Shown here: positions 1 to 12,099 of the stretch, one piece after another
How the letters are laid out: each line of letters opens with the position of its first letter
How positions within the stretch are numbered: position 1 is the stretch's first letter
Origin: Streptomyces akebiae
Lineage (GTDB): Bacteria; Actinomycetota; Actinomycetes; Streptomycetales; Streptomycetaceae
Direction of reading: 5' to 3'
NCBI RefSeq assembly: GCF_019599145.1
Contig: NZ_CP080647.1
Coordinates: forward strand, 2,666,001-2,730,000
Length of the DNA stretch: 64,000 bases
Position numbers and translations under genes: made by a program
The notes under the pieces: model-generated
Databases searched by the model: none
Told to the model about the DNA's origin: nothing
Seen by the model: the letters and a program-made list of their open reading frames with translations, nothing else

Positions 1-660
1 ACCCGGCCGGGGTTCGAGGATGACCTGGCGGTCCTGCGAACCCGTCGCCGCGATCGCGTCGATCGACGCCATGCCCGTCCAGTCGCGCTTCTCGATGCCC
101 AGCTCGGACACGCCCGGAGCCGCGATCATGCAGTGGTCGATCGGCTCGACCTCGTGCGAGCGGTGGCGGCGCAGACCGGCACGCCCCGACTCGTCCACCG
201 CGTACTGCACCCGCGTCCGCCACGCCGGGACCTCGCCCGCCGGCAGCTTGTCGCCCTCGGCGGGCATCACGGTGCCGTCCCAGCCCGCCTCCTCGGGGGT
301 GAGACCCGCGAGGCGCTGCAGCTGTTCGGCGATGACCTCGCCCTTGAAGCGGCGCTGGGCGCCCGGCTTGGCGTGCTGCCAGTCACAGCCGCCGCAGCGG
401 CCGGGGCCGGCGTAGGGGCAGGGGGCCTCGACCCGGTCCTTGGAGGCCGACAGGACCGAGACCGCGTCGGCCCGCAGGAAGCGGGCGCCCTCCTCGCCGT
501 CGGTCACCCGCGCCACGACCCGCTCGCCGGGCAGCGCGTGCCGGACGAAGAGGACCTGTCCCTCGGAGGTACGGGCGATGCAGTGGCCGCCGTGGGCGAC
601 GGGGCCCACCTCGACCTCGTACTCCTCTCCCACCAGCGATTTCTTCGGTTCTGCCTGCAT
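1..660 (-). CDS. Class I SAM-dependent RNA methyltransferase (TrmA/RumA type), 3' part missing
   Basis: The minus-strand frame opens at ATG 660 and runs 220 codons to the window edge without a stop, so the C-terminal catalytic part lies outside. The first 60 or so residues look like a TRAM RNA-binding domain (EVEVGPVAHGGHCIARTSEG). A cysteine-rich stretch CPYAGPGRCGGCDWQH follows, typical of the [4Fe-4S] site of the RumA/TrmA uracil-5-methyltransferase family. The expected role is methylation of uridine in rRNA or tRNA. The same gene precedes the APC permease gene in mycobacteria (Rv2689c), which supports the call. It is co-directional with the permease gene, 126 bp downstream of it. The methyltransferase motifs cannot be checked here. 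Confidence 0.85.
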   Translation of the reverse strand, partial: MQAEPKKSLVGEEYEVEVGPVAHGGHCIARTSEGQVLFVRHALPGERVVARVTDGEEGARFLRADAVSVLSASKDRVEAPCPYAGPGRCGGCDWQHAKPGAQRRFKGEVIAEQLQRLAGLTPEEAGWDGTVMPAEGDKLPAGEVPAWRTRVQYAVDESGRAGLRRHRSHEVEPIDHCMIAAPGVSELGIEKRDWTGMASIDAIAATGSQDRQVILEPRPG

Positions 661-786
661 GGTGGGGTGACTCCAGAGAGAGGAAAGCGAAAACGGCCGG
701 ACAACAGCCCACCAGTCTACGTGGGTGCCGTCCGACCGTTTACCACGAGCAGCGGCCCGCGGGTGAACTCCGGCTCCAGGTGCGCG

Positions 787-2862
787 TCAGTTCTCGTCGG
801 CCGAGGACGTGGTCGACGTCCTGGCCGGTGACTCCTTGGGGCGCTCGTCCGCCGGACCACGCCGTACCGACCCCGGCGCACTCCAGTCCTGCCGCTTGCG
901 CGCCCGGCGCTTGGCGACCTCGGAGGACTCCAGCTGGTAGGGCACGGAGGTCACCATGACACCCGGCGTGAAGAGCAGCCGACCCTTGAGCCGGAGTGCG
1001 CTCTGGTTGTGCAGCAGGTGCTCGTACCAGTGGCCGACCACGTACTCGGGGATGATCACCGACACCGCGTCGCGCGGGGACTCCTTGCGCAGCCCCTTGA
1101 CGTACTCGATCACGGGCCGCGTGACCTCGCGATACGGCGAGTCGAGGACCTTCAGCGGTACGTCGATGCCGCGCCGCGTCCACTCCTCCTGGAGTGCCTT
1201 GGTCTCCGCCGGGTCGACGTTGACGCTCAGCGCCTCCAGCGTGTGGGAGCGCATCAGCTTCGCGTAGGCGAGGGCCCGCAGGGTGGGACGGTGGATCTTG
1301 GAGATCAGCACCACCGAGTGGACCCGGGACGGTCGGACGACGTCGTCGCTCGGGCCGTCCGGCGCGGCGAGCTCCGCGGCGACCCGGTCGTAGTGCTTAC
1401 GGATGGCCGTCATCGTCGCGTAGAAGATCACCATGCCGAGGAGGGCGACCCAGGCGCCGTGCGTGAACTTGGTGCCGAGGACGACGATCAGCACCAGGCC
1501 CGTGAAGAAGGCGCCGAAGGTGTTGATCGCCCGCGAGCGGATCATGTGGCGGCGCTTGGCCGGGTCCTTCTCCGTCCGCAGGTGCCGGTTCCAGTGCCGG
1601 ACCATGCCGGTCTGGCTGAGCGTGAAGGAGACGAACACACCCACGATGTAGAGCTGGATGAGGCGCGTGGAGTCGGCGCCGTAGATCCACACCAGGAGCA
1701 CGGCGGCGCCCGCGAGGAGCACGATGCCGTTGGAGAAGGCGAGGCGGTCGCCGCGGGTGTGCAGCTGGCGCGGGAGGTAGCGGTCCTGGGCCAGGATCGA
1801 GCCGAGCAGCGGGAAGCCGTTGTACGCGGTGTTCGCGGCCAGGAAGAGGACGAGTGCGGTGGCGGCGGCCAGTACGACGAAGAGGAAGGTGCCGTCACCG
1901 AAAACGGCGGCCGCGACCTGGGAGATCACGGGGTTCTGGACGTAGGAGTCGCCGACCGGGGTGCCGTCGCGCACCAGGTCGACCGCCGGGTTCTCGGCCA
2001 TCCGCACGTTGGTGGCCATGGCCAGGCCGATGATGCCGCAGAACATGGTGACGGCGAAGAAGCCCATCAGGGCCAGAGTGGTGGCCGCGTTCCTCGACTT
2101 GGGCTTGCGGAAGGCGGGCACGCCGTTGGAGATGGCCTCGACACCGGTGAGCGCGGCACAGCCGGAGGAGAAGGCGCGCAGCAGCAGGAAGACCAGCGCG
2201 AAGCCGGCGAGCCCCTGGTGCTCGGCCTTGATCTCCAGATCGGCGGTGGGTGCCCGCATCGTCTCGTCGAGCACCAGCCCCCGGAACGCGCCCCACGCGA
2301 TCATCAGGAAGACGCCGACGACGAAGACGTAGGTCGGGATCGCGAAGAGCTTCCCGGACTCCTTCACCCCGCGCAGGTTCATCAGCGTGAGCAGCACGAT
2401 GATGCCGATCGCGCAGAGCACCTTGTGCTCGACGAAGAAGGGGACGGCCGAGCCGAGGTTCTCCACGCCGGAGGAGATGGACACGGCGACGGTGAGGACG
2501 TAGTCGACGAGGAGCGCGCTGGCGACGGTGAGGCCGGCCCGGGGGCCGAGGTTGGTGTTCGCCACCTCGTAGTCGCCGCCGCCGCTCGGGTAGGCGTGCA
2601 CGTTCTGCCGGTACGACGCCACCACGGTGAACATCAGCACGACGACCGCGACGGCGATCCAGGGGCTGAAGTGGTAGGCCGACACGCCCGCGATGGAGAG
2701 GACCAGCAGCACCTCGCCGGGTGCGTACGCCACGGAGGAGAGCGGGTCGGAGGCGAAGACGGGGAGTGCGATGCGCTTCGGCAGGAGCGTTTCGCCCAGC
2801 CGGTCGCTGCGCAGAGCGCGCCCGATCAGAATCCGTTTGGGCACGTCGGTCAGTTTGGACAC
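787..2862 (-). CDS. APC-superfamily permease resembling the potassium importer KimA
   Basis: About 690 residues with twelve predicted membrane segments and a soluble C-terminal domain of about 150 residues. Near the N-terminus is SDPLSSVAYAPGE, followed by YPSGGGDYEVAN and FSSGCAALTGVEAISNGVPAF, the pattern of the KimA branch of the APC superfamily. The C-terminal tail, ending near LLHNQSALRLKGRLLF, looks UspA-like as in Bacillus subtilis KimA, where it senses c-di-AMP. Annotation pipelines usually call such proteins amino acid permeases. Potassium transport is inferred from recalled sequence likeness and from the two TrkA genes divergently transcribed 475 bp away. The start is uncertain: GTG 2862 gives the family-like N-terminus VSKLTDVPKR, but the frame is open to 2901 and no clear Shine-Dalgarno precedes either. 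Confidence 0.85.
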   Translation of the reverse strand: MSKLTDVPKRILIGRALRSDRLGETLLPKRIALPVFASDPLSSVAYAPGEVLLVLSIAGVSAYHFSPWIAVAVVVLMFTVVASYRQNVHAYPSGGGDYEVANTNLGPRAGLTVASALLVDYVLTVAVSISSGVENLGSAVPFFVEHKVLCAIGIIVLLTLMNLRGVKESGKLFAIPTYVFVVGVFLMIAWGAFRGLVLDETMRAPTADLEIKAEHQGLAGFALVFLLLRAFSSGCAALTGVEAISNGVPAFRKPKSRNAATTLALMGFFAVTMFCGIIGLAMATNVRMAENPAVDLVRDGTPVGDSYVQNPVISQVAAAVFGDGTFLFVVLAAATALVLFLAANTAYNGFPLLGSILAQDRYLPRQLHTRGDRLAFSNGIVLLAGAAVLLVWIYGADSTRLIQLYIVGVFVSFTLSQTGMVRHWNRHLRTEKDPAKRRHMIRSRAINTFGAFFTGLVLIVVLGTKFTHGAWVALLGMVIFYATMTAIRKHYDRVAAELAAPDGPSDDVVRPSRVHSVVLISKIHRPTLRALAYAKLMRSHTLEALSVNVDPAETKALQEEWTRRGIDVPLKVLDSPYREVTRPVIEYVKGLRKESPRDAVSVIIPEYVVGHWYEHLLHNQSALRLKGRLLFTPGVMVTSVPYQLESSEVAKRRARKRQDWSAPGSVRRGPADERPKESPARTSTTSSADEN

Positions 2863-3107
2863 GGAGAGGATCGTAAGCGCCCCGACTGGTTCTGGGCACA
2901 TCCGGGTGAAATCCCGGCGGGCCCCGGGGTGAAATCGGTCCGCCGACGGTTGCGAAGTGCGTCACGTCACGCATCCTCCGGTCTGATGAACTGCGTCCTC
3001 ACGTCTGTATGACGAAATTCCGTCGGTCCCGTGTACGTGCCGTGTGTGCGCCGGGCGTCCGACGGAACCCGTGACGTTCCCGCCCCCCCTCACTCCCTGG
3101 AGGCCCC

Positions 3108-3218
3108 ATGCAGGCCGCGACCGCTGAGCTGATCGGCGCTCTCGCCTCCCTCGTCGGACTCGGCTTCCTGACGAGGACCAGCGTCCGCCGGATCAGTCGT
3201 CGACGTCCCACGATGTGA
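3108..3218 (+). CDS. Possible 36-residue hydrophobic small protein
   Basis: A short frame with start ATG 3108 follows a good Shine-Dalgarno (CTGGAGG, ending 4 bases before the start) and encodes 36 residues. Residues 6-22 form one hydrophobic helix (AELIGALASLVGLGFLT), followed by a very basic tail (RTSVRRISRRRP), a positive-inside arrangement fitting a single-pass membrane peptide. It sits in the divergent region between the KimA-like permease and the TrkA pair and is oriented with the TrkA genes, 118 bp before them. I do not recognise the family. It could be a leader peptide or chance; conservation across Streptomyces would decide. Confidence 0.4.
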   Translation: MQAATAELIGALASLVGLGFLTRTSVRRISRRRPTM

Positions 3219-3336
3219 CCCGTGGGTGCACGGGGGTGCCCCCGGCGGACCGCGCGTGTGTAGCTTGGGCGACGGTCTGAGACCCTGTTTTCGACGTTTC
3301 GGCTGAACAGTAGCTATTGACACCGGAAGGACGGTC

Positions 3337-4008
3337 GTGCACATCGTCATCATGGGCTGCGGGCGAGTGGGTTCCACCCTCGCCCAGACCCTGGAGCAAC
3401 AGGGGCACACGGTCGCCGTGATCGACCAGGACCCCACGGCCTTCCGTCGTCTGGGCTCGGGTTTCGGCGGCCGGCGCGTCACCGGGATCGGCTTCGACCG
3501 CGACACCCTGCGTGAGGCGGGCATCGAGGAGGCGGGCGCGTTCGCCGCCGTCTCCAGCGGCGACAACTCCAACATCATCGCCGCCCGGGTCGCCCGCGAG
3601 ATGTTCGGCATCGAGAACGTGGCGGCACGGATCTACGACCCCCGCCGCGCCGAGGTCTACCAGCGTCTGGGCATTCCGACGGTCGCCACGGTCCGCTGGA
3701 CCGCCGACCAGATGCTCCGCCGACTGCTGCCGTCCGGCGCCGAGCCGCTGTGGCGCGATCCCACCGGCGGCGTCCAGCTCGCCGAGGTGCACGCCTCGTC
3801 GGCCTGGGTGGGCCACAAGATCAGCAAGATGCAGGAGGAGACCGGTGTCCGGGTCGCCTTCCTGACCCGCCTGGGCGAGGCGATCCTGCCGACCTCGCAG
3901 ACGGTGCTGCAGGAGGGCGACCTCGTGCACGTGATGATGCGGACGGACGACGTGGAGAAGGTCGAGGCGTCCTTCGCCGAGGGCCCCGACGAGGAGGGCG
4001 GTCACTGA
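3337..4008 (+). CDS. ceoB: TrkA-family (RCK) potassium uptake regulatory protein, first of pair
   Basis: 223 residues from GTG 3337, with GGAAGG at 3325-3330 as ribosome binding site. The N-terminal RCK_N Rossmann domain begins with the nucleotide-binding motif MHIVIMGCGRVGSTLA and has an acidic residue after strand 2 (VIDQD). The C-terminal 80 residues form a TrkA_C/RCK_C domain (ILPTSQTVLQEGDLVHVMM), a fold that binds c-di-AMP in several Gram-positive proteins. TrkA proteins gate cation channels or carriers in response to NAD(H) or ATP/ADP. It overlaps the next TrkA gene by one base (TGATG), so the two are translationally coupled. This is the mycobacterial ceoB/ceoC arrangement. No TrkH/KtrB channel gene is adjacent; the divergent KimA-like permease is the nearest possible partner. 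Confidence 0.93.
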   Translation: MHIVIMGCGRVGSTLAQTLEQQGHTVAVIDQDPTAFRRLGSGFGGRRVTGIGFDRDTLREAGIEEAGAFAAVSSGDNSNIIAARVAREMFGIENVAARIYDPRRAEVYQRLGIPTVATVRWTADQMLRRLLPSGAEPLWRDPTGGVQLAEVHASSAWVGHKISKMQEETGVRVAFLTRLGEAILPTSQTVLQEGDLVHVMMRTDDVEKVEASFAEGPDEEGGH

Positions 4009-4685
4009 TGAGGGTCGCCATTGCCGGAGCCGGAGCGGTCGGCCGCTCGATCGCGGGCGAACTGCTGGAGAACGGCCACGAGGTCCTTCTCATCGACAAG
4101 GCGCCGACCGCCATCTCGGTCGAGCGCGTGCCCCAGGCGGAGTGGCTGCTGGCCGACGCCTGCGAGATCACCTCCCTGGACGAGGCGGCGCTGCAGCGCT
4201 GCAACGTCGTCATCGCCGCGACCGGTGACGACAAGGTCAACCTGGTCGTCTCGCTGCTGGCGAAGACGGAGTACGGGGTTCCGCGGGTCGTCGCCCGCGT
4301 CAACAACCCCAAGAACGAGTGGCTGTTCAACGAGTCCTGGGGCGTGGACGTGGCCGTGTCGACCCCCCGGCTTATGTCGGCACTGGTCGAGGAGGCAGTG
4401 AGCGTCGGCGACCTGGTCCGGCTGCTCCGTTTCAGCCACGGCGACGCCAACCTCGTCGAGCTGACGCTGCCGCCCGAGTCGGCCCTGGCCGGCACCCAGG
4501 TCGGTGAGGTCGAGTGGCCGGAGGACACCTCCCTGGTCACCATCATCCGCGGCACCCGGGTCCTCACCCCGACCTCGGACGACTCCCTGGAGGCGGGCGA
4601 CGAGCTCCTCTTCGTGGCCGCCCAGGCCCGCGAGGAGCAGTTGGAGGACCTGCTGTCGGTACGCCGCGAGGACGCGACGAGCTGA
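4008..4685 (+). CDS. ceoC: TrkA-family (RCK) potassium uptake regulatory protein, second of pair
   Basis: 225 residues. The start ATG 4008 shares one base with the stop of the preceding gene. The RCK_N domain starts MRVAIAGAGAVGRSIAGELL, a glycine-rich dinucleotide-binding loop, with an aspartate after the second strand (LIDKAP). The RCK_C domain occupies the last 80 residues (LEAGDELLFVAA). The region between carries FNESWGVDVAVSTPRLMSAL, typical of TrkA proteins. The two products probably form a hetero-oligomeric RCK ring. A strong hairpin terminator follows 36 bp after the stop, so the operon probably ends here. Confidence 0.93.
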   Translation: MRVAIAGAGAVGRSIAGELLENGHEVLLIDKAPTAISVERVPQAEWLLADACEITSLDEAALQRCNVVIAATGDDKVNLVVSLLAKTEYGVPRVVARVNNPKNEWLFNESWGVDVAVSTPRLMSALVEEAVSVGDLVRLLRFSHGDANLVELTLPPESALAGTQVGEVEWPEDTSLVTIIRGTRVLTPTSDDSLEAGDELLFVAAQAREEQLEDLLSVRREDATS

Positions 4686-4720
4686 CGCGAGGGCCCACGT
4701 TCAGGTGATTCCACGACGGC

Positions 4721-4754
4721 GAAGGGGCGCCCCGAGAATTCGGGGCGCCCCTTC
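4721..4754. terminator. Hairpin terminator between convergent TrkA and DUF3159 genes
   Basis: A perfect 15-bp inverted repeat (arms 4721-4735 and 4740-4754) with a 4-base loop lies between convergent genes. The T-run is weak, as usual in Streptomyces, and the element can act in both directions. Confidence 0.8.
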
Positions 4755-4816
4755 GCGTCATGTATCCGGGTGTCCAGTGCCGCGGCAGGCAGCGTTTGCG
4801 CGACGGGGCGAACGTT

Positions 4817-4856
4817 GGCCGGTCGCGGCACTAGTCGGCCGGTCGCGGCACTAGTC
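4817..4856. repeat. 20-bp perfect tandem duplication at the end of the DUF3159 gene
   Basis: Two adjacent identical 20-bp units (4817-4836 and 4837-4856) include the TAG stop of the minus-strand DUF3159 gene (4851-4853). The copy outside the gene repeats the same final codons and stop out of frame. It looks like a recent slippage duplication. Confidence 0.85.
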
Positions 4857-5609
4857 GGCCGACCGCGCCGCGGCCTTCCGCTCCTCCGCCGCCCGCTCCT
4901 CCGCCTCCATCTCCGCGAACACGTCGATCGGGGCCGGCGCCTTGGCCAGGAAGATCCAGGTCAGCCAGACGGCAAGCAGGAACGGCGGGATCTTCAGGGC
5001 GATGAGGACCCAGCCGAGCTGCGTCGTGTCGGCCCACCAGTAGAGCGGGAAGAGGATCGCGCACTTGCCGAGCAGGATCGCGCCCCAGGCGTAACTCGCC
5101 TTCGCGTACGCCTTCTTGCGTCCGGGGTTACGGGTCCGCCAGGAGAGGTTCTCCTTGAAGACCGGGCCGAGCATCAGACCGATCAGCGGCACGCCGGCCA
5201 GCGTCGTGATGATGTACGCGCAGCCGAGGCCCAGCGTGTAGAGCATGCCCGGCAGATAGAAGTCCTTGGCGTTGCCGGTCATCATCGCGAAGACCACACC
5301 GAAGGCGACCCCGAAGACACCGCTGAAGGCGTGCTTGACGGTGTCCTTCATGACCAGCCGCACCACGACCAGCAGGACGGAGACGCCGAGGGCCGCCAGG
5401 GCCGCCGAGTGCAGGTCCTTGTTGATCGTGTAGATGGAGACGAAGAGCAGGCCCGGGAGCACGGTCTCGACCATGCCGCGCACGCCGCCGAACGCCTCGA
5501 ACAGCGCGGCCTCCGTCACCGCCCTGGAGTCGTGCGAGCCGTCCTGTCCGCCCTCTGCGTCCTGGACGCCGCGCTGGGCGTCTTCCGTCGGCTTGTCGAG
5601 CGACGTCAC
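4851..5609 (-). CDS. DUF3159 integral membrane protein
   Basis: 252 residues from GTG 5609, starting 3 bases after the stop of the OB-fold gene, so the pair is probably one operon. Five to six predicted membrane segments lie between about residues 48 and 225, flanked by a polar N-terminus and a Glu/Ala/Arg-rich C-terminal helix (AEMEAEERAAEERKAAA). DUF3159 proteins are actinobacterial with no established function; the mycobacterial counterpart (Rv2693c) sits beside ceoC as here. The KPTEDAQ-like acidic N-terminus is probably cytoplasmic. A role in ion homeostasis would be guilt by association only. Confidence 0.88.
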   Translation of the reverse strand: MTSLDKPTEDAQRGVQDAEGGQDGSHDSRAVTEAALFEAFGGVRGMVETVLPGLLFVSIYTINKDLHSAALAALGVSVLLVVVRLVMKDTVKHAFSGVFGVAFGVVFAMMTGNAKDFYLPGMLYTLGLGCAYIITTLAGVPLIGLMLGPVFKENLSWRTRNPGRKKAYAKASYAWGAILLGKCAILFPLYWWADTTQLGWVLIALKIPPFLLAVWLTWIFLAKAPAPIDVFAEMEAEERAAEERKAAARSAD

Positions 5610-5612
5610 CGG

Positions 5613-6011
5613 CTACTCCCGTCCGAGCGGTCTGAGTTCGTACTTCGGATTGAACAGCACCCTACGGCCCCGGCTCATCGAGATCCGGCCGGATGCGATC
5701 AGCCTGCGCCCCGGCTCTATCCCGACGATGGAGCGTCTGCCCAGCCACACCACGTCCAGGGCGGCCGAACCGTCGAACAGCTCGGCCTCCAGGGCCGGGA
5801 CACCGGCCCGGGGGCGCAGCGTGACCGTGCGCAAGGTACCAGTAACGGTCACTATCTGTCGGTCGTGGCAGTCACATATACGCGTACAGCCCGCGGTGTC
5901 CGCGTCCTCGCGCAGCTCCTCCGACTCCAGGTCCGTCTGGGACGAGGAGAGCCGGTCGAGCATGCGCCGGAAACGGCCCGCCGGCTTGTCGGAACGAGGA
6001 ACAGCACTCAT
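5613..6011 (-). CDS. OB-fold nucleic acid-binding domain protein
   Basis: 132 residues. Residues 40-128 match a small OB-fold: a strand with IVTVTGTLRTVTLRP, then LEAELFDGSAALDVVWLGRRSIVGIEPGRR and a last strand IASGRISMSRGRRVLFNPKYEL. This resembles the OB domain of RecG/RecJ-like DNA-binding proteins and DUF4131-like modules. The N-terminal 35 residues are charged and probably helical. It lies immediately upstream of the DUF3159 membrane protein gene, as in mycobacteria (Rv2694c). Single-stranded nucleic acid binding is the likely activity, but the physiological role is unknown. Confidence 0.85.
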   Translation of the reverse strand: MSAVPRSDKPAGRFRRMLDRLSSSQTDLESEELREDADTAGCTRICDCHDRQIVTVTGTLRTVTLRPRAGVPALEAELFDGSAALDVVWLGRRSIVGIEPGRRLIASGRISMSRGRRVLFNPKYELRPLGRE

Positions 6012-6078
6012 GACAAAAAGCGTACCGGGGTCCGCCGACAGTCCAGCACCCCCGTACGCGGCCTCCGCGCACCGCGTC

Positions 6079-6762
6079 TCACTTCTCGAAGCGGTACCCC
6101 ATCCCCGCCTCGGTGATGAAGTACCGGGGCCGCGACGGGTCGCCCTCCAGCTTGCGCCGCAGCTGGGCCATGTAGACCCGGAGGTAGTTGGTCTCCGTCC
6201 CGTACGACGGCCCCCACACCTCCTGGAGCAGTTGCTTCTGGCTGACCAGACGCCCGGTGTTGCGGACCAGCACCTCCAGGAGGTGCCACTCGGTGGGGGT
6301 GAGCCGGACGTCCCTGCCGTCCCGGTTCACCTTCTTCGCGGCCAGGTCGACGGTGAAGTCGTCCGTCTCCACGATCACGTCGCCCTCCTCGCCGCCCACG
6401 GGCTCCGCGCGACGGACGGCGGCGCGCAGCCGGGCGAGCAGCTCGTCCATGCCGAAGGGCTTGGTGACGTAGTCGTCGGCGCCCGCGTCCAGGGCCTCGA
6501 CCTTCTCGTCGGATGTGTGCCGGGCGGAGAGCACGATGATCGGCACCCGGGTCCAGCCGCGCAGCCCCTTGATCACCTCGACGCCGTCCATGTCGGGCAG
6601 TCCGAGATCGAGGACGACAACATCGGGGTGCCGGGCGGCGGCGAGCGCGAGCGCGGTCGCCCCGTCGTGGGCGGCGTCGGCCTCGTACTCGCGGGCCTTC
6701 AGATTGATCACGAGCGCACGCACGATCTGCGGCTCGTCGTCGACCACGAGCACCCTGGTCAT
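6079..6762 (-). CDS. kdpE: KdpE, OmpR-family response regulator for potassium/turgor
   Basis: 227 residues from ATG 6762, starting 10 bp after the kdpD stop. The receiver domain (1-120) has the acidic pair D8/D9, phospho-acceptor D52 (VVVLDLGLP) and the conserved lysine in YVTKPF. The C-terminal winged helix (about 130-225) carries LTPTEWHLLEVLVRNTGRLVSQ and ends GMGYRFEK, diagnostic of the KdpE branch. It activates kdpFABC in other bacteria under low potassium or hyperosmotic stress. No kdpFABC genes are in this window, so the regulated pump must be elsewhere or the pair has another target. Confidence 0.95.
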   Translation of the reverse strand: MTRVLVVDDEPQIVRALVINLKAREYEADAAHDGATALALAAARHPDVVVLDLGLPDMDGVEVIKGLRGWTRVPIIVLSARHTSDEKVEALDAGADDYVTKPFGMDELLARLRAAVRRAEPVGGEEGDVIVETDDFTVDLAAKKVNRDGRDVRLTPTEWHLLEVLVRNTGRLVSQKQLLQEVWGPSYGTETNYLRVYMAQLRRKLEGDPSRPRYFITEAGMGYRFEK

Positions 6763-6772
6763 ATGGACCGCC

Positions 6773-9412
6773 TCATCCGGTTCGCCTCTCTGCCGATGTG
6801 GCCGTGCCGCCCGGCGCGTCGCCGGCCGTGTCCGCCGACGGGGCGGCGTCCGCCGACGTAGACGCGTCCACGGCCCGGTCGGTGCCCGACGAGGCCGTAT
6901 CGGGCCCGGAGCCGTTGGGCGCGGCCCGTACGGTGAGCACCATGGTGAGCCCTCCGCCGGGGGTGTCCTCGGCGTCGAGCGTGCCGCCCATGGCCTCGGC
7001 GAAGCCCCTGGCGACGGCGAGCCCCAGGCCGACGCCGGTTCCGCGCGGGGCGTCGCCGTGGCGCTGGAAGGGGGCGAAGATGCGGTCCTTGGCCTCGTCG
7101 GGTACGCCGGGGCCGCGGTCGGTGACCCGGACCTCGACACGGCCGCCGAGGGCGCTCGCGGAGACCTGGACGGGTGTGCCGGGCGGGCTGTACTTGACGG
7201 CGTTCTCGACGATGTTGGCGACCGAGCGCTCCAGCAGCCCGGGGTCGACGGCGACCATGGGCAGGCTCTCGGGGATCTCCAGCCCGACGCTGCCCTCCGG
7301 GACACCGCCGAGCGCCATCGGCACCACCTCGTCGAGGTCGATCTCGCGGATCAGCGTGGTGACCGTGCCGGTCTGCAGCCGGGACATGTCGAGGAGGTTG
7401 CCCACGAGGTGGTCGAGCCGGTCGGCGCCGTACTCGATCCCTGCGAGCAGTTCGGCCTCGTCCTCCCGTGACCAGGCCACGTCGTCGGAGCGCAGCGACG
7501 ACACGGCGGCCTTGATCCCGGCCAGCGGGGTGCGCAGATCGTGGCTGACGGCGGCGAGGAGCGCGGTGCGGATGCGGTTGCCCTCGGCCAGTGCCTTGGC
7601 CTGGTCGGCCTCCTGCTGGAGGCGTCGGCGGTCCAGGACGACGGCGGCCTGGGCGGCGAACGCGGCCAGCACCCGGCGGTCCTCGGCGGGCAGGACGCGT
7701 CCGGAGAGGGCGAGCGCCATATGGTCCCCGACCGGCATGTCCACGTCCGCGGCCTCGGGACGGTCCATCTGGCGGGGGCCCACGCTGCCCGCGCAGGTCC
7801 ACGGGTCGACGTCGCTCTCGCGCTCCAGCAGGGCCACGGACTCCATCCCGAAGGTCTCGCGCACCCGTTCGAGGAGGGCCTCCAGGCTGGTCTCACCGCG
7901 CAGCACACTGCCCGCCAGGAAGGACAGGATCTCCGACTCGGCGCGCAGCCGGGCCGCCTGGTGGGTGCGCCGGGCCGCGAGGTCCACCACGGAGGCCACC
8001 GCCACCGCGACGCCTATGAAGACCACGATGGCGACGATGTTCGTCGGGTCGTCGACCGTCAGCGTGTGCACCGGTGAGGTGAAGAACCAGTTGAGCAGCA
8101 GCGAGCCGAGCACGGCCGCGGCCAGGGCGGGCAGCAGACCGCCGAGCAGGGCCGCGGCCACCGTCAGCGTCAGGAAGAGCAGCATGTCGTTGGCGAGACC
8201 CAGGTCGGTCTCGAAGCCGGCCAGTAGCGGCGCCAGCAGCAGGGGCCCCAGCGTCCCGACCAGCCAGCCCCAGACCATCCGGGCGCGGCCGAGGCGCGCG
8301 CCCCGGGCGACGGGCAGTCCGCGTCCCTTGCCCGCCTCGTCGTGCGTGATCAGGTGGACGTCCAGGTCGGGCCCGGAGTCGCGGGCGACGGTGGCACCGA
8401 CGCCCGGCCCGAAGACGTACTGCCAGCTCTTGCGGCGCGAGACGCCCAGCACTATCTGGGTGGCGTTGACACCGCGCGCGAAGGCCAGCAGCGCGGCGGG
8501 GACGTCGTCGCCGACGACGTGGTGGAAGGTGCCGCCGAGGTCCTCGACGAGGGTGCGCTGGACGGCGAGTTCCTTGGGCGAGGCGGAGGTCAGCCCGTCA
8601 CTGCGGGCGATGTAGACGGCCATGACCTCGCCGCCCGCGCCCTTCTCGGCGAGCCGGGCGGCTCTGCGCAGCAGGGTCCTCCCCTCGCGGCCCCCGGTCA
8701 GTCCGACCACGATCCGCTCGCGGGAGCCCCAGATCCGCGACACCCGGTGCTCGCTGCGGTAGGCGTTGAGGTACTCGTCGACCCGGTCCGCCACCCACAG
8801 CAGTGCCAGCTCGCGCAGCGCGGTCAGGTTCCCGGGGCGGAAGTAGTTCGACAGCGCGGCGTCGACCTTGTCCGGCTGGTAGACGTTGCCGTGCGCCATC
8901 CGCCGTCGCAGGGCCTGTGGCGACATGTCGACCAGCTCTATCTGGTCCGCCCGCCGCACCACCTCGTCGGGGACGGTCTCGCGCTGCCGTACGCCGGTTA
9001 TCGACTCGACGACGTCACCGAGGGATTCCAGGTGCTGGATGTTGACGGTCGAGACCACGTCGATGCCGGCGGCGAGCAGGTTCTCGACGTCCTGCCAGCG
9101 CTTTTCGTTGCGGGAGCCGGGCACATTGGTGTGGGCCAGCTCGTCCACGAGGGCCACCCGGGGCCGTCGGGCGAGAACGGCGTCGACGTCCATCTCGGTG
9201 AAGACCGTGTCCCGGTACTCCAGCGTCCTACGCGGGATCTGCTCCAGTCCGTGCAGCATCACCTCGGTGCGCGGCCGGCCGTGGTGCTCCACGACGGCCA
9301 CCACGCAGTCGGTGCCGCGTTCGATCCGGCGGTGCGCTTCGGACAGCATCGCGTACGTCTTGCCGACGCCCGGTGCCGCACCGAGGTAGATCCGAAGCTT
9401 TCCGCGTCCCAT
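6773..9412 (-). CDS. kdpD: KdpD, potassium-responsive sensor histidine kinase
   Basis: 879 residues. The N-terminal KdpD domain carries a P-loop (GAAPGVGKT, residues 11-19) and a Walker-B-like ALVDELAHTN. A universal-stress-protein domain (about 235-365) is followed by four closely spaced membrane segments (about 385-480), a GAF-like region, and a HisKA/HATPase kinase core with phospho-acceptor H624 in SHDLRTPL, then ENAVKYSPPG and GVGLGLAVARGF. The last 50 residues are a low-complexity Ser/Ala/Asp tail. The Staphylococcus c-di-AMP motif SxS-X20-FTAxY is not evident in the Usp domain. It is co-transcribed with kdpE. Confidence 0.95.
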   Translation of the reverse strand: MGRGKLRIYLGAAPGVGKTYAMLSEAHRRIERGTDCVVAVVEHHGRPRTEVMLHGLEQIPRRTLEYRDTVFTEMDVDAVLARRPRVALVDELAHTNVPGSRNEKRWQDVENLLAAGIDVVSTVNIQHLESLGDVVESITGVRQRETVPDEVVRRADQIELVDMSPQALRRRMAHGNVYQPDKVDAALSNYFRPGNLTALRELALLWVADRVDEYLNAYRSEHRVSRIWGSRERIVVGLTGGREGRTLLRRAARLAEKGAGGEVMAVYIARSDGLTSASPKELAVQRTLVEDLGGTFHHVVGDDVPAALLAFARGVNATQIVLGVSRRKSWQYVFGPGVGATVARDSGPDLDVHLITHDEAGKGRGLPVARGARLGRARMVWGWLVGTLGPLLLAPLLAGFETDLGLANDMLLFLTLTVAAALLGGLLPALAAAVLGSLLLNWFFTSPVHTLTVDDPTNIVAIVVFIGVAVAVASVVDLAARRTHQAARLRAESEILSFLAGSVLRGETSLEALLERVRETFGMESVALLERESDVDPWTCAGSVGPRQMDRPEAADVDMPVGDHMALALSGRVLPAEDRRVLAAFAAQAAVVLDRRRLQQEADQAKALAEGNRIRTALLAAVSHDLRTPLAGIKAAVSSLRSDDVAWSREDEAELLAGIEYGADRLDHLVGNLLDMSRLQTGTVTTLIREIDLDEVVPMALGGVPEGSVGLEIPESLPMVAVDPGLLERSVANIVENAVKYSPPGTPVQVSASALGGRVEVRVTDRGPGVPDEAKDRIFAPFQRHGDAPRGTGVGLGLAVARGFAEAMGGTLDAEDTPGGGLTMVLTVRAAPNGSGPDTASSGTDRAVDASTSADAAPSADTAGDAPGGTATSAERRTG

Positions 9413-9563
9413 GTCCCCATTGTCTTCCCGTGATCACTGCCTGCGCAGCGTCGACCTTACGGCCAATAATCACGGCAAAACGGGCAGAGGCGACCGGAGG
9501 CCGCCTCTTTGACACAACCCTGACGCCGACACCCCTGCGGGGGCACGGCCCTGCGGGGGCACG

Positions 9564-9601
9564 GGGAACTGCGCGGCCGAGCGCGCGGACCCGCAGTTCC
9601 C
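9564..9601. terminator. Hairpin of the common Streptomyces GGGGAACTGCGCG repeat
   Basis: Arms GGGAACTGCG (9564-9573) and CGCAGTTCCC (9592-9601) form a 10-bp stem with further GC pairing possible inside. This sequence type, preceded by CTGCGGGGGCACGG, recurs at many Streptomyces gene ends and probably terminates the DUF3710 operon, whose stop is 22 bp away. Confidence 0.65.
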
Positions 9602-9622
9602 GGACGGCCCCAGCCGGAACGG

Positions 9623-10399
9623 CTAGCGGACCTCGGTGATCTCCGGCCCGCGCTGCAGCTGCCCCATGCCGCCGGAGAAGCGGGAACCGGCCTGCTCCTC
9701 CTGCTGGACTCCCTCGGGGACCATCTGCGCGTCGTTCGGCAGTTTCAGGACGATCGGGTCGCGCGGAGCCATCGGGCCCTCGCCGCGGACGACGACCGTG
9801 TCCCGGAAGATCTGCTCCAGCAGCCCGGCGGTCTGCGGCTCCACCGCGCCCCGCCCGGAGATCACCCCGCGCAGGAACCAGCGGGGCCCGTCCACACCGA
9901 CGAAGCGGACCACCTGGAAGCCACCCGTGCCGTCCGGCAACTGCACCGGCACCTGCGCGCGGAGCTCCCAGCCGAGCGGCCCCTCGACCTCGTCGATGAC
10001 CCCGCCCTGCTGGGTGATGCCGGAGGCGATCTCCTCGCGGACCTCGCCCCAGATGCCCTCACGCTTGGGCGCGGCGAAGGCCTGCAGCTGGACCGCGCTG
10101 TCGCGCAGCACGACGGTCGCGGCGACGATCGCGTCGCCCGCGACCTCGACCCGCAGCTCCATGCCGTCGACTCCGGGCACGAAGATGCCGCCGAGGTCCA
10201 CCCGGCCCTCGCCGGGCTCGCGCACCTCGGAGCTGTCCCACGGCCCGTCCGGCCGGGGCTCGGGCTCGAGCCGCACGCGCTCCCGCTCGACGTCCGCCTC
10301 AGCGTCGGCTTCCCCGGCAACGCCGTCGACCTGCTCGGCCTCGCTCGCCGCGTCCGCCGCGTCCTCAGCGGAACCCTTCTTCTTGCGACGTCCGAACAC
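9623..10399 (-). CDS. DUF3710 domain protein
   Basis: 258 residues from GTG 10399, chosen because GGGAAGGA lies 8-9 bases upstream and because it starts 1 bp after the dut stop. The N-terminus (FGRRKKKG) is basic; residues 12-60 are acidic and probably disordered. The DUF3710 body follows (VDLGGIFVPGVDGMELRVEV, then WEVREEI-like and LRGVISGRGA segments), predicted mainly beta. The family is actinobacterial and always near dut (Rv2696c in Mycobacterium tuberculosis). The function is unknown. Confidence 0.9.
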   Translation of the reverse strand: MFGRRKKKGSAEDAADAASEAEQVDGVAGEADAEADVERERVRLEPEPRPDGPWDSSEVREPGEGRVDLGGIFVPGVDGMELRVEVAGDAIVAATVVLRDSAVQLQAFAAPKREGIWGEVREEIASGITQQGGVIDEVEGPLGWELRAQVPVQLPDGTGGFQVVRFVGVDGPRWFLRGVISGRGAVEPQTAGLLEQIFRDTVVVRGEGPMAPRDPIVLKLPNDAQMVPEGVQQEEQAGSRFSGGMGQLQRGPEITEVR

Positions 10400-10400
10400 G

Positions 10401-10940
10401 TCACTGTCCTTCCCGGTCGGATACGACCGAAGCGTATCGATTCCCACCCGTTGTGCCGCTTGTGCTGCTTGCGCCGTCCACGGCGGCATGACCACCGGTG
10501 GACCCGAAGCCCCCCTCGGCCCGCGCCGAGTCGGGAAGCTCCGCCACCTCGTGGAAGCGCACCTTCTCGACCTGCTGGACGACCAGTTGGGCAATCCGGT
10601 CGAAGCGCTCGAACCGTACGGCTTCATACGGGTCGAGATTCACCACGATCACCTTGATCTCCCCACGGTACCCGGCATCAACCGTCCCCGGGGCATTCAC
10701 CAGGGCGACGCCGCAGCGGGCGGCGAGACCGGAGCGTGGGTGCACGAAGGCCGCGTACCCCTCGGGGAGCGCGATGGACACTCCCGTGGGCAGTACGGCC
10801 CGTTCGCCGGGCTTCAACTCCCGGCTCTCCGTGGTGCGCAGATCGGCGCCCGCGTCGCCGGGCCGCGCGTAGTCCGGCAGCGGCACGTCGGGGTCGACGC
10901 GCCGGATCAGGACGTCGAGAGGGGGACGTCCGCCGCTCAC
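10401..10940 (-). CDS. dut: dUTPase (deoxyuridine triphosphatase)
   Basis: 179 residues from GTG 10940, overlapping the upstream thioesterase stop by four bases (GTGA). It hydrolyses dUTP to dUMP and pyrophosphate, keeping uracil out of DNA and feeding thymidylate synthesis. The five trimeric dUTPase motifs are visible: PGDAGADLRT (1), HPRSGLAAR (2), VNAPGTVDAGYRGEIKV (3), ERFDRIAQLVV (4) and the C-terminal ARAEGGFGSTGGH (5). A 30-residue Ser/Thr/Gly-rich tail follows motif 5, somewhat longer than in mycobacterial Dut. Confidence 0.97.
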   Translation of the reverse strand: MSGGRPPLDVLIRRVDPDVPLPDYARPGDAGADLRTTESRELKPGERAVLPTGVSIALPEGYAAFVHPRSGLAARCGVALVNAPGTVDAGYRGEIKVIVVNLDPYEAVRFERFDRIAQLVVQQVEKVRFHEVAELPDSARAEGGFGSTGGHAAVDGASSTSGTTGGNRYASVVSDREGQ

Positions 10941-11521
10941 GGGTTCACCTCGAAGGCACGCGCCCGCCGGACCTGGTCCGGGTCGTTCATGGCCGCCTGG
11001 ATCTCCTCCTCGCGACCGTGGTCGATGAAGTGGTCGACCTTGACCTCGACGAAGAGCGCGTCGGCGCGGACGGCGAGCGGTCCGTCGGGGCTGCCGACGC
11101 GTCCCTCGGCGGTCGCGAAGATCTTCCGCCCGGCCACCGCCGTGACCTCGGCCCTCAGATGCAGCACGGTGCCCACGGGGACGGGCCGCATGAAGTCGGT
11201 CTCCAGCCGTCCGGTCACCGCGATGGTGCGCAGCAGCCAGTTGAGGGAGCCGAGGGTCTCGTCGAGGGCGCTGGCCAGGACCCCGCCGTGGGCGAGCCCC
11301 GGGGCGCCCTGGTGCGCGGGCCGTACGGTGAACTCGGCGGTGAGAGTGACGCCTTCACCGGCCCTCGCCTCCAGGTGCAGCCCGTGGGGCTGCTCGTCGC
11401 CACAGCCGAAACACTGCCCGTAGTGTGCGCCGAGCAGCTCACCCGGGGCGGGTGCCTCGGGATGGCGTACGGGCGCCGTGGCGTCCGCCGGGGGCCGCAG
11501 GGCCGCGGAAGTACCTCTCAC
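10937..11521 (-). CDS. PaaI-family hotdog-fold thioesterase
   Basis: 194 residues from a GTG at 11521. The hotdog signature is HQGAPGLAHGGVLASALDE, with the aspartate/glutamate pair used by PaaI-type acyl-CoA thioesterases, followed by VTGRLETDFMRPVPVG. A CFGCGDEQPHGL motif near residue 37 is typical of this subgroup. The expected reaction is hydrolysis of a small acyl-CoA; the substrate cannot be read from sequence. The four-base overlap with dut suggests coupled translation. The first 30 residues are Ala/Pro-rich and poorly supported, so a later start is possible. Confidence 0.88.
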   Translation of the reverse strand: MRGTSAALRPPADATAPVRHPEAPAPGELLGAHYGQCFGCGDEQPHGLHLEARAGEGVTLTAEFTVRPAHQGAPGLAHGGVLASALDETLGSLNWLLRTIAVTGRLETDFMRPVPVGTVLHLRAEVTAVAGRKIFATAEGRVGSPDGPLAVRADALFVEVKVDHFIDHGREEEIQAAMNDPDQVRRARAFEVNP

Positions 11522-11634
11522 AGCCGCAGACCTTACCCGTCCGTCAGCGTCCGGCCATCGCCCCTGCGGGCAGGGTTTCCCCTCGGACGCCCCTACTTCC
11601 GGGGCCGGAGGGTCCGCATGCCAAGCTTGACGCC

Positions 11635-12099
11635 ATGCAGCTCTCCGTCCCGCCGTACGAAGAACGCCTCACCGCTCCCCGCACCTGGTGGCTCGTCTGC
11701 TTCCTGGTCGGCGTCTCGATGGCCCTCATCCTGCTGCCGTTCGGCACGCTCCCCCTCCTGGGCGGCCTCGCCGGCGGAACCGCGGTCGCGGCGGTCGTCA
11801 CCAGCTCGTACGGCTCGGTCCGGATCCGCGTCGTGGGCGACTCCCTGATCGCGGGCGAGGCGAAGATCCCGGTGAGCGCCCTCGGCGAACCGGAGATCCT
11901 GGACCGGGAGGAGGCACAGGCCTGGCGCACCCACAAGGCCAACCCCCACGCCTTCATGCTCCTGCGCGCCTACATCCCGACGGCCCTCCGCATCCCGATC
12001 ACCGATCCGACGGACCCGACCCCGTACGTCTACTTGTCGACCCGGGAGCCGGAGCGCGTGGTCGCGGCCCTGGAAGCGGCGAAGAAGACGGCTGCGTAG
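11635..12099 (+). CDS. DUF3093 membrane protein
   Basis: 154 residues from ATG 11635. Two adjacent membrane segments span about residues 18-57 (WWLVCFLVGVSMALILLPFG and LLGGLAGGTAVAAVVTS), followed by a small soluble beta-rich domain ending in YVYLSTREPERVVAALEAA. DUF3093 proteins lie next to dut in actinobacteria (Rv2698). The soluble part resembles a PH-like fold. The function is not known. It is divergent from the thioesterase-dut operon with a 113-bp gap. Confidence 0.88.
   Translation: MQLSVPPYEERLTAPRTWWLVCFLVGVSMALILLPFGTLPLLGGLAGGTAVAAVVTSSYGSVRIRVVGDSLIAGEAKIPVSALGEPEILDREEAQAWRTHKANPHAFMLLRAYIPTALRIPITDPTDPTPYVYLSTREPERVVAALEAAKKTAA

Follow-up and report, generated by a model that had tools for sequence, protein, structure and literature searches.

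A KimA-type potassium permease as the probable partner of a split TrkA pair in Streptomyces akebiae

Which membrane protein is served by a pair of TrkA-like RCK proteins in a genome where no Trk channel can be found? The question is raised by a locus at positions 787-9412 of a 64,000-nucleotide stretch (the window) of the 10.5 Mb genome of Streptomyces akebiae (G000; G, L, C and f handles denote genomes, loci, contigs and families). RCK proteins are known to gate K+ channels, TrkH and KtrB among them, as well as K+/H+ antiporters. The locus encodes a permease, two RCK proteins of the CeoB and CeoC types and the KdpE and KdpD regulators, that is, all of the genes named in a first-pass annotation of this DNA; as described there, the permease gene is divergent from two coupled TrkA genes on the opposite strand. 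The TGA of ceoB (4006-4008) and the ATG of ceoC (4008-4010) share one base. Our answer is that CeoB and CeoC probably assemble and dock on the permease, a KimA-type protein, in the place of TrkH and raise its activity. If so, the RCK gating principle extends to an APC-fold importer, and a puzzling annotation (a Trk system without a channel) becomes a directly testable gene pair; the trio recurs in distant actinobacteria, so that it may also explain the puzzling K+ system of mycobacteria and name the missing membrane part of their CeoBC system.

The first-pass annotation expected an amino acid permease label on a protein that resembles the K+ importer KimA of Bacillus subtilis, and both expectations are borne out: the Pfam label is AA_permease_2 and amino acid transporter is among the source names, yet a PDB sequence search at E <= 1 matches KimA alone (the two align over 598 residues with 38.5% identity), and the three quoted permease motifs are found in the sequence. 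In structure comparison, the fold scores place KimA far ahead of amino-acid transporters. The residues that coordinate K+ in KimA (D36, Y43, T230 and Y377) are all kept, as D52, Y59, T252 and Y418. We reject on the K+-site residues and the fold the reading offered by the database label, that is, an ordinary amino-acid permease, and regard it as highly improbable; the permease is assigned to the KimA type, and K+/H+ symport is predicted for it. The 120 nearest relatives listed for the permease share 88-98% identity with it, and wherever an organism name is given it is Streptomyces.

The claim of a UspA-like tail fails, in that no Pfam match to Usp is obtained at E <= 0.001 in the permease tail; passages of PMC10284832 describe the cytosolic domain of KimA as PPAT-like and place KimA of B. 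subtilis under the control of cyclic di-AMP (c-di-AMP) through that domain. In the c-di-AMP pocket R337 and H579-S582 (HNQS) of KimA are identical in the permease (R378 and H631-S634), as are V457, L461 and V506; differences between the two proteins fall at P479, A481, F565, F568, R587 and W592. B. subtilis KimA (YdaO; a K+/H+ symporter of the KUP family) shares the fold, the K+ site and the R337 and HNQS residues with the permease; the Streptomyces akebiae locus differs from it in having two RCK genes alongside and in lacking a detectable ydaO riboswitch. Control by such a riboswitch was rejected, the search for the ydaO/kimA riboswitch giving no match at E <= 1 within positions 1-12000 of the window. 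As a separate observation, the KimA cytosolic domain is tandemly duplicated at four loci from deep lineages (L031, L032, L034 and L039); the HNQ(S/T) c-di-AMP motif is lost in the first copy and kept in the second copy of three of the four.

No competing membrane partner was found among the K+ importers sought. A genome-wide search for TrkH (PF02386) gave no match, and the control was matched in 11 of 14 genomes; the first-pass annotation, which saw no TrkH or KtrB nearby and proposed this genome-wide search, was right on the point. The only match to Kup (PF02705) in the whole genome is the permease itself, under the cut-off. The permease is also the only KimA match; it is, that is, the only K+ importer found by searches for KimA, TrkH and Kup (Kdp was not searched), and a TrkH or Kup encoded elsewhere was rejected as the RCK partner. 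CeoB and CeoC each have TrkA_N and TrkA_C domains above the Pfam cut-offs, and the nucleotide motif GxGxxG is present in the pair as GCGRVG and GAGAVG.

The linkage of the two was followed in 118 genomes of the class, with adjacency scored in the 114 that have a listed CeoC place; contig breaks lower the adjacency counts, and related genomes are counted as independent. CeoC is matched in 115 and KimA in 108 of the 118 genomes. In 89 of the 114 genomes a KimA match is found at most 3 kb from CeoC, divergent in every case; this adjacency is beyond chance. KimA is matched in 77 of the 80 class genomes without TrkH; one of the three exceptions carries Kup, and the remaining two genomes are 93% and 60% complete.

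In the phylum sample (149 genomes), KimA is matched in 71, CeoB in 142 and TrkH in 83. Outside the class, the best CeoB places were compared in 93 of 130 genomes with a CeoB match, those with a listed place. With a band at 43% CeoB identity, picked after seeing the data, the 49 genomes at or above it have KimA within 5.5 kb in 31 and TrkH in 3; the 44 genomes below it have KimA in none and TrkH in 18. The 31 KimA-linked genomes (G073 by a weak match of 29% identity) are divergent in 22 cases and co-directional in 9, and only 2 of them have TrkH anywhere. At 80 named CeoB loci, KimA occurs within the examined stretch in 70; in 35 of these 70 neither the RNA methyltransferase nor the DUF3159 gene that neighbours the pair in the class was found, 17 of the 35 being examined for at least 2.5 kb past both ends and one of these 17 being labelled Candidatus Dormiibacterota. 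Since the class neighbours were not found at the 17 loci with full flanks, KimA is there the neighbour that stays. At another named locus with full flanks, L131, no transporter of this kind was found beside the RCK pair. The RCK-KimA linkage is deep and is found in two arrangements, divergent and co-directional.

Two side observations belong to these loci. A gene like the H+-pyrophosphatase gene of L049 (PF03030) lies near kimA-ceoBC in 13 of the 80 named loci (L111-L115, L119, L122, L123, L125, L127, L140, L141 and L153). A metagenome-assembled genome labelled Bifidobacterium breve has a CeoBC locus (L148) whose CeoB groups with that of G170, a 1.3 Mb genome; this species label is perhaps mistaken.

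We take as shown that the permease is of the KimA type and that its link with the RCK pair is old, along with homology, the K+-site residues, the absence of TrkH and of any Kup match over the cut-off, and the deep linkage in two arrangements. For the pairing itself, the docking, the direction of control and the ligand we propose the following model. The permease would be a KimA-type K+/H+ symporter; CeoB and CeoC would be the two halves of a split TrkA, that is, soluble nucleotide-binding (GxGxxG) RCK proteins that would form a joint complex and dock on the permease dimer from its cytosolic side, replacing the missing TrkH channel. When the K+ state and the adenine nucleotide bound to them signal a need for uptake, CeoB/CeoC would raise permease activity; c-di-AMP may act separately as a further brake, through the cytosolic domain of the permease itself. 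Regulation of the permease by the RCK pair is in our view the best explanation of a TrkH-less RCK pair beside a K+ importer. This regulation was the hypothesis of the first-pass annotation, and it is strengthened in part: the linkage is deep and re-arranged, the genome has no TrkH or KtrB, and ceoB and the mycobacterial neighbour Rv2690c occur together in one screen and one variant list (below).

The same genes could instead form one K+ regulon without contact, the RCK pair sensing nucleotide or redox state and acting elsewhere, and KimA being only a co-regulated neighbour whose own tail puts it under c-di-AMP control, as it does in Bacillus. KimA of B. subtilis needs no RCK protein and acts alone. 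Its control by c-di-AMP (PMC10284832, in part) and the identity of the pocket residues R337, H579, N580, Q581 and S582 in the permease fit a regulon of this kind, as does the persistence of CeoBC in seven class genomes of the 114 that lack KimA, or eight if G205 is counted (its only match has E 9.4e-4). We nevertheless consider this explanation unlikely, although the most serious of the alternatives: the pair stays with KimA in changed neighbourhoods (35 of the 80 named loci, 17 with both flanks), the genes run co-directionally in 9 of 31 cases, and related RCK pairs adjoin other cation transporters. Alternatively, CeoB/CeoC may have their membrane partner in the product of the convergent gene, the DUF3159 protein; it would then be a new kind of K+ pathway with KimA as a bystander. 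DUF3159 adjoins CeoC in 94 of 114 class genomes, no less often than KimA does, and in all 25 of those without adjacent KimA; in G146, outside the class, DUF3159 is beside CeoBC (C44, L054 9050-9697) and KimA is ~80 kb away. Against it, in 20 of the 114 class genomes KimA adjoins CeoC and DUF3159 does not, in part because of contig breaks. Outside the class DUF3159 occurs in 8 of 137 genomes and adjoins CeoBC in one of the six with a listed CeoB place, while KimA is adjacent in 31 genomes outside the class. Its AlphaFold model (pLDDT 90) has no Foldseek match in the PDB at E <= 0.001, and VIA gives helical-bundle rows of middling Z; this bears neither way on transport. The DUF3159 protein is thus a live rival, but one to which we give still less weight than to the regulon without contact.

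Several observations count against docking on KimA itself, in addition to the self-sufficiency of B. subtilis KimA, the KimA-less CeoC genomes and the constancy of DUF3159. Both KimA and CeoC are present without adjacency in a further 17 of the 114 genomes (some because of contig breaks); G254 has a KimA match without a CeoC match; and five f22 genomes have KimA with no adjoining RCK pair found (some flanks are 1.5 kb), the pair being beside a P-type ATPase. A second KimA-like paralogue (L059, in G128, a Streptomyces relative) carries F at the position of Y377 and H at that of R337, with no adjoining RCK pair found. No permease-RCK fusion was seen among the 120 rows listed per homologue search, which hold near relatives only and were not a systematic fusion search. 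Exclusive pairing is also questioned by TrkH, which occurs in 7 of 10 KimA-less and 31 of 108 KimA-bearing class genomes (Fisher p 0.012, relatedness uncorrected). In five KimA-less CeoC genomes (G239, G164, G209, G236 and G247), the TrkH locus has an adjoining KtrA-like RCK gene in four (a single one in L191, L192, L194 and L195; none scored in L193). TrkH therefore has no obvious need of CeoBC in these genomes. CeoC identity falls to ~50% in four f62 genomes in which KimA is absent or diverged (G180, G209, G236 and G247); we set this drop aside because the KimA-less G164 and G239 show no such drop.

Known RCK systems provide partial precedents for docking on the permease. TrkA/TrkH and KtrA/KtrB likewise have RCK regulators with TrkA_N and TrkA_C domains; here, however, the RCK halves are separate proteins, the genome has no TrkH, and the neighbour is an APC-fold symporter. 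KhtTU and CpeAB, in passages of PMC10117811, are a precedent for an RCK_C-type protein that regulates a secondary transporter rather than a channel; those transporters are K+/H+ antiporters of the cation/H+ exchanger type whose RCK_C domains bind c-di-AMP, whereas the transporter here is an importer and the RCK_C domains lack the c-di-AMP signature. That signature, (I/L)(I/L)X2DXRX5N(I/L)(I/L), taken from PMC10117811, is present in none of 100 CeoB-like and none of 100 CeoC-like proteins, the window pair included, in a set without a positive control. With this result, and with the statement in passages of that review that Vnz_27460 does not bind (unpublished), we rejected c-di-AMP sensing by these RCK_C domains; the first-pass annotation had mentioned RCK_C as a c-di-AMP target in other bacteria.

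Passages of the same Streptomyces review (PMC10117811) name two KimA-like proteins, so KimA-like proteins in this genus are already known. They describe Vnz_27465 of S. venezuelae as KimA-like (39%) and Vnz_27460 as an RCK_C protein, report that TrkH, KtrB and KtrD were not found in this species and that c-di-AMP is bound by two out of six RCK_C domains but not by the remaining ones, including Vnz_27460 (partly unpublished), and draw no link between the two genes. Locus numbers and identity suggest that Vnz_27465 and Vnz_27460 are the counterparts of the present locus.

In M. tuberculosis, ceoB and ceoC (Rv2691/Rv2692) are, in the texts searched, two overlapping TrkA genes beside the integral membrane gene Rv2690c, and the family f3 genomes in our sample show the divergent layout. 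By position and by its relatives, Rv2690c is a putative orthologue of the permease. The CeoBC literature searched differs in treating CeoBC itself as the low-affinity Trk uptake system, and neither TrkH nor Rv2690c is mentioned in the CeoBC main texts searched; Rv2690 is already called a gene of the Trk system in passages of PMC12216072, where ceoB and the adjacent Rv2690c are both among thirteen enhanced-survival transposon mutants. Both are also on a list of M. tuberculosis regions enriched in within-host variants, and deletion of ceoBC is described as lowering intrabacterial K+ and altering pH, chloride and cholesterol responses. Other reports speak against the proposed docking: two other M. 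tuberculosis screens list Rv2690c but, in the text searched, neither ceo gene; the searched text of the rifampicin paper does not mention ceoC; a ceoBC mutant is reported to grow without defect at low K+ and, by reporter, to be only slightly more sensitive to it (passages of PMC6375644); and a Trk/Kdp triple mutant grows and takes up K+, its authors suggesting transporters other than Rv2690c (passages of PMC13163235). No proposal of Rv2690c as KimA, or of RCK control of KimA, was found in the open literature searched. As a side observation, two f3 loci (L106 in G074 and L107 in G219) carry, at a distance from ceoBC, an additional CeoC-like gene of 53-56% identity beside which no CeoB-like gene was found; in L106 a 547-aa open reading frame with ~10 predicted transmembrane segments is divergent from it.

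The Streptomyces akebiae genome has 12 TrkA_N matches, including a second tandem RCK pair (C1:9,079,127-9,080,430; 44% identity to CeoB and 42% to CeoC) that comes immediately after the gene of a P2-type cation ATPase of 944 aa, in the same orientation (L043 4291-8431, that is, C1:9,076,290-9,080,430). When 100 CeoB-like loci are labelled by the nearest transporter within 4.5 kb, the labels are KimA in 58, P-type ATPase in 27, TrkH in 1 and none in 14; because some of the loci came from KimA and CeoB searches, these proportions are not a census. The 27 ATPases adjoin tandem RCK genes on the same strand, mostly in deep actinobacterial lineages. On the CeoB-like tree the ATPase label needs 3 changes (24 when shuffled) and the KimA label 11 (32 when shuffled), and G134 and G102, of the same family, have different partners. 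Against NCBIfam, six of the ATPases are best matched by the Na,K/H,K model (three) or the PMR1-type Ca model (three), all under the model cut-offs. The PEGLL and IDLGTD motifs are taken to be Na,K-ATPase-like. It is possible, though we would not yet rely on it, that the CeoB-CeoC twin is a portable governor of cation transport fitted to unrelated transporters (a KimA-type symporter, P2-type Na,K/H,K-like ATPases and TrkH), with one pair for KimA and a paralogous pair for the P2-type ATPase in Streptomyces akebiae, and that mycobacterial Trk is an RCK-controlled KimA with no Trk channel.

KdpDE, which the first-pass annotation placed in the same block within 2 kb, are there, KdpE 1.4 kb past CeoC, and Pfam confirms the sensor and kinase domains of KdpD and the regulator domains of KdpE; as a conserved unit they do not hold. 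Among the 80 named loci, kdpD is beside ceoBC in 28 of 35 from Streptomycetaceae and 0 of 45 others (many of these cut by contig ends), and KdpE is linked only in Streptomycetaceae except for one KdpE-like match in L114. Given this restriction of kdpD linkage, we rejected the idea that KdpDE belong functionally to the unit.

Table 1. Features of the Streptomyces akebiae locus (window coordinates) and the ATPase-linked RCK loci.
Feature	Position	Strand	Basis or remark
KimA-type K+ permease (predicted), APC fold plus cytosolic domain	787..2901	-	sequence, fold, K+-site residues
Divergent intergenic region common to permease and ceoB	2902..3336		435 bp; 474 bp if permease starts at 2862
CeoB-type RCK protein, TrkA_N and TrkA_C	3337..4008	+	divergent from permease
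CeoC-type RCK protein, TrkA_N and TrkA_C	4008..4685	+	start overlaps CeoB stop
DUF3159 membrane protein	4851..5609	-	convergent neighbour of RCK pair
KdpE response regulator	6079..6762	-	Pfam domains
KdpD sensor kinase	6773..9412	-	domains KdpD, Usp, DUF4118, HisKA, HATPase
P-type ATPase-RCK loci	L043, L055-L058, L211, L212, L214-L218, L223-L236, L240	same strand

The permease reading frame encodes 704 aa from its ATG; an in-frame alternative GTG start at 2862 gives 691 aa, closer to the length of most homologues listed (682 aa). Between ceoC and kdpE lie the DUF3159 gene and a short OB-fold gene on the minus strand, the OB-fold match being under the Pfam cut-off. The DUF3159 gene has two tandem copies of a 20-bp unit at its 3' end (window positions 4817-4856).
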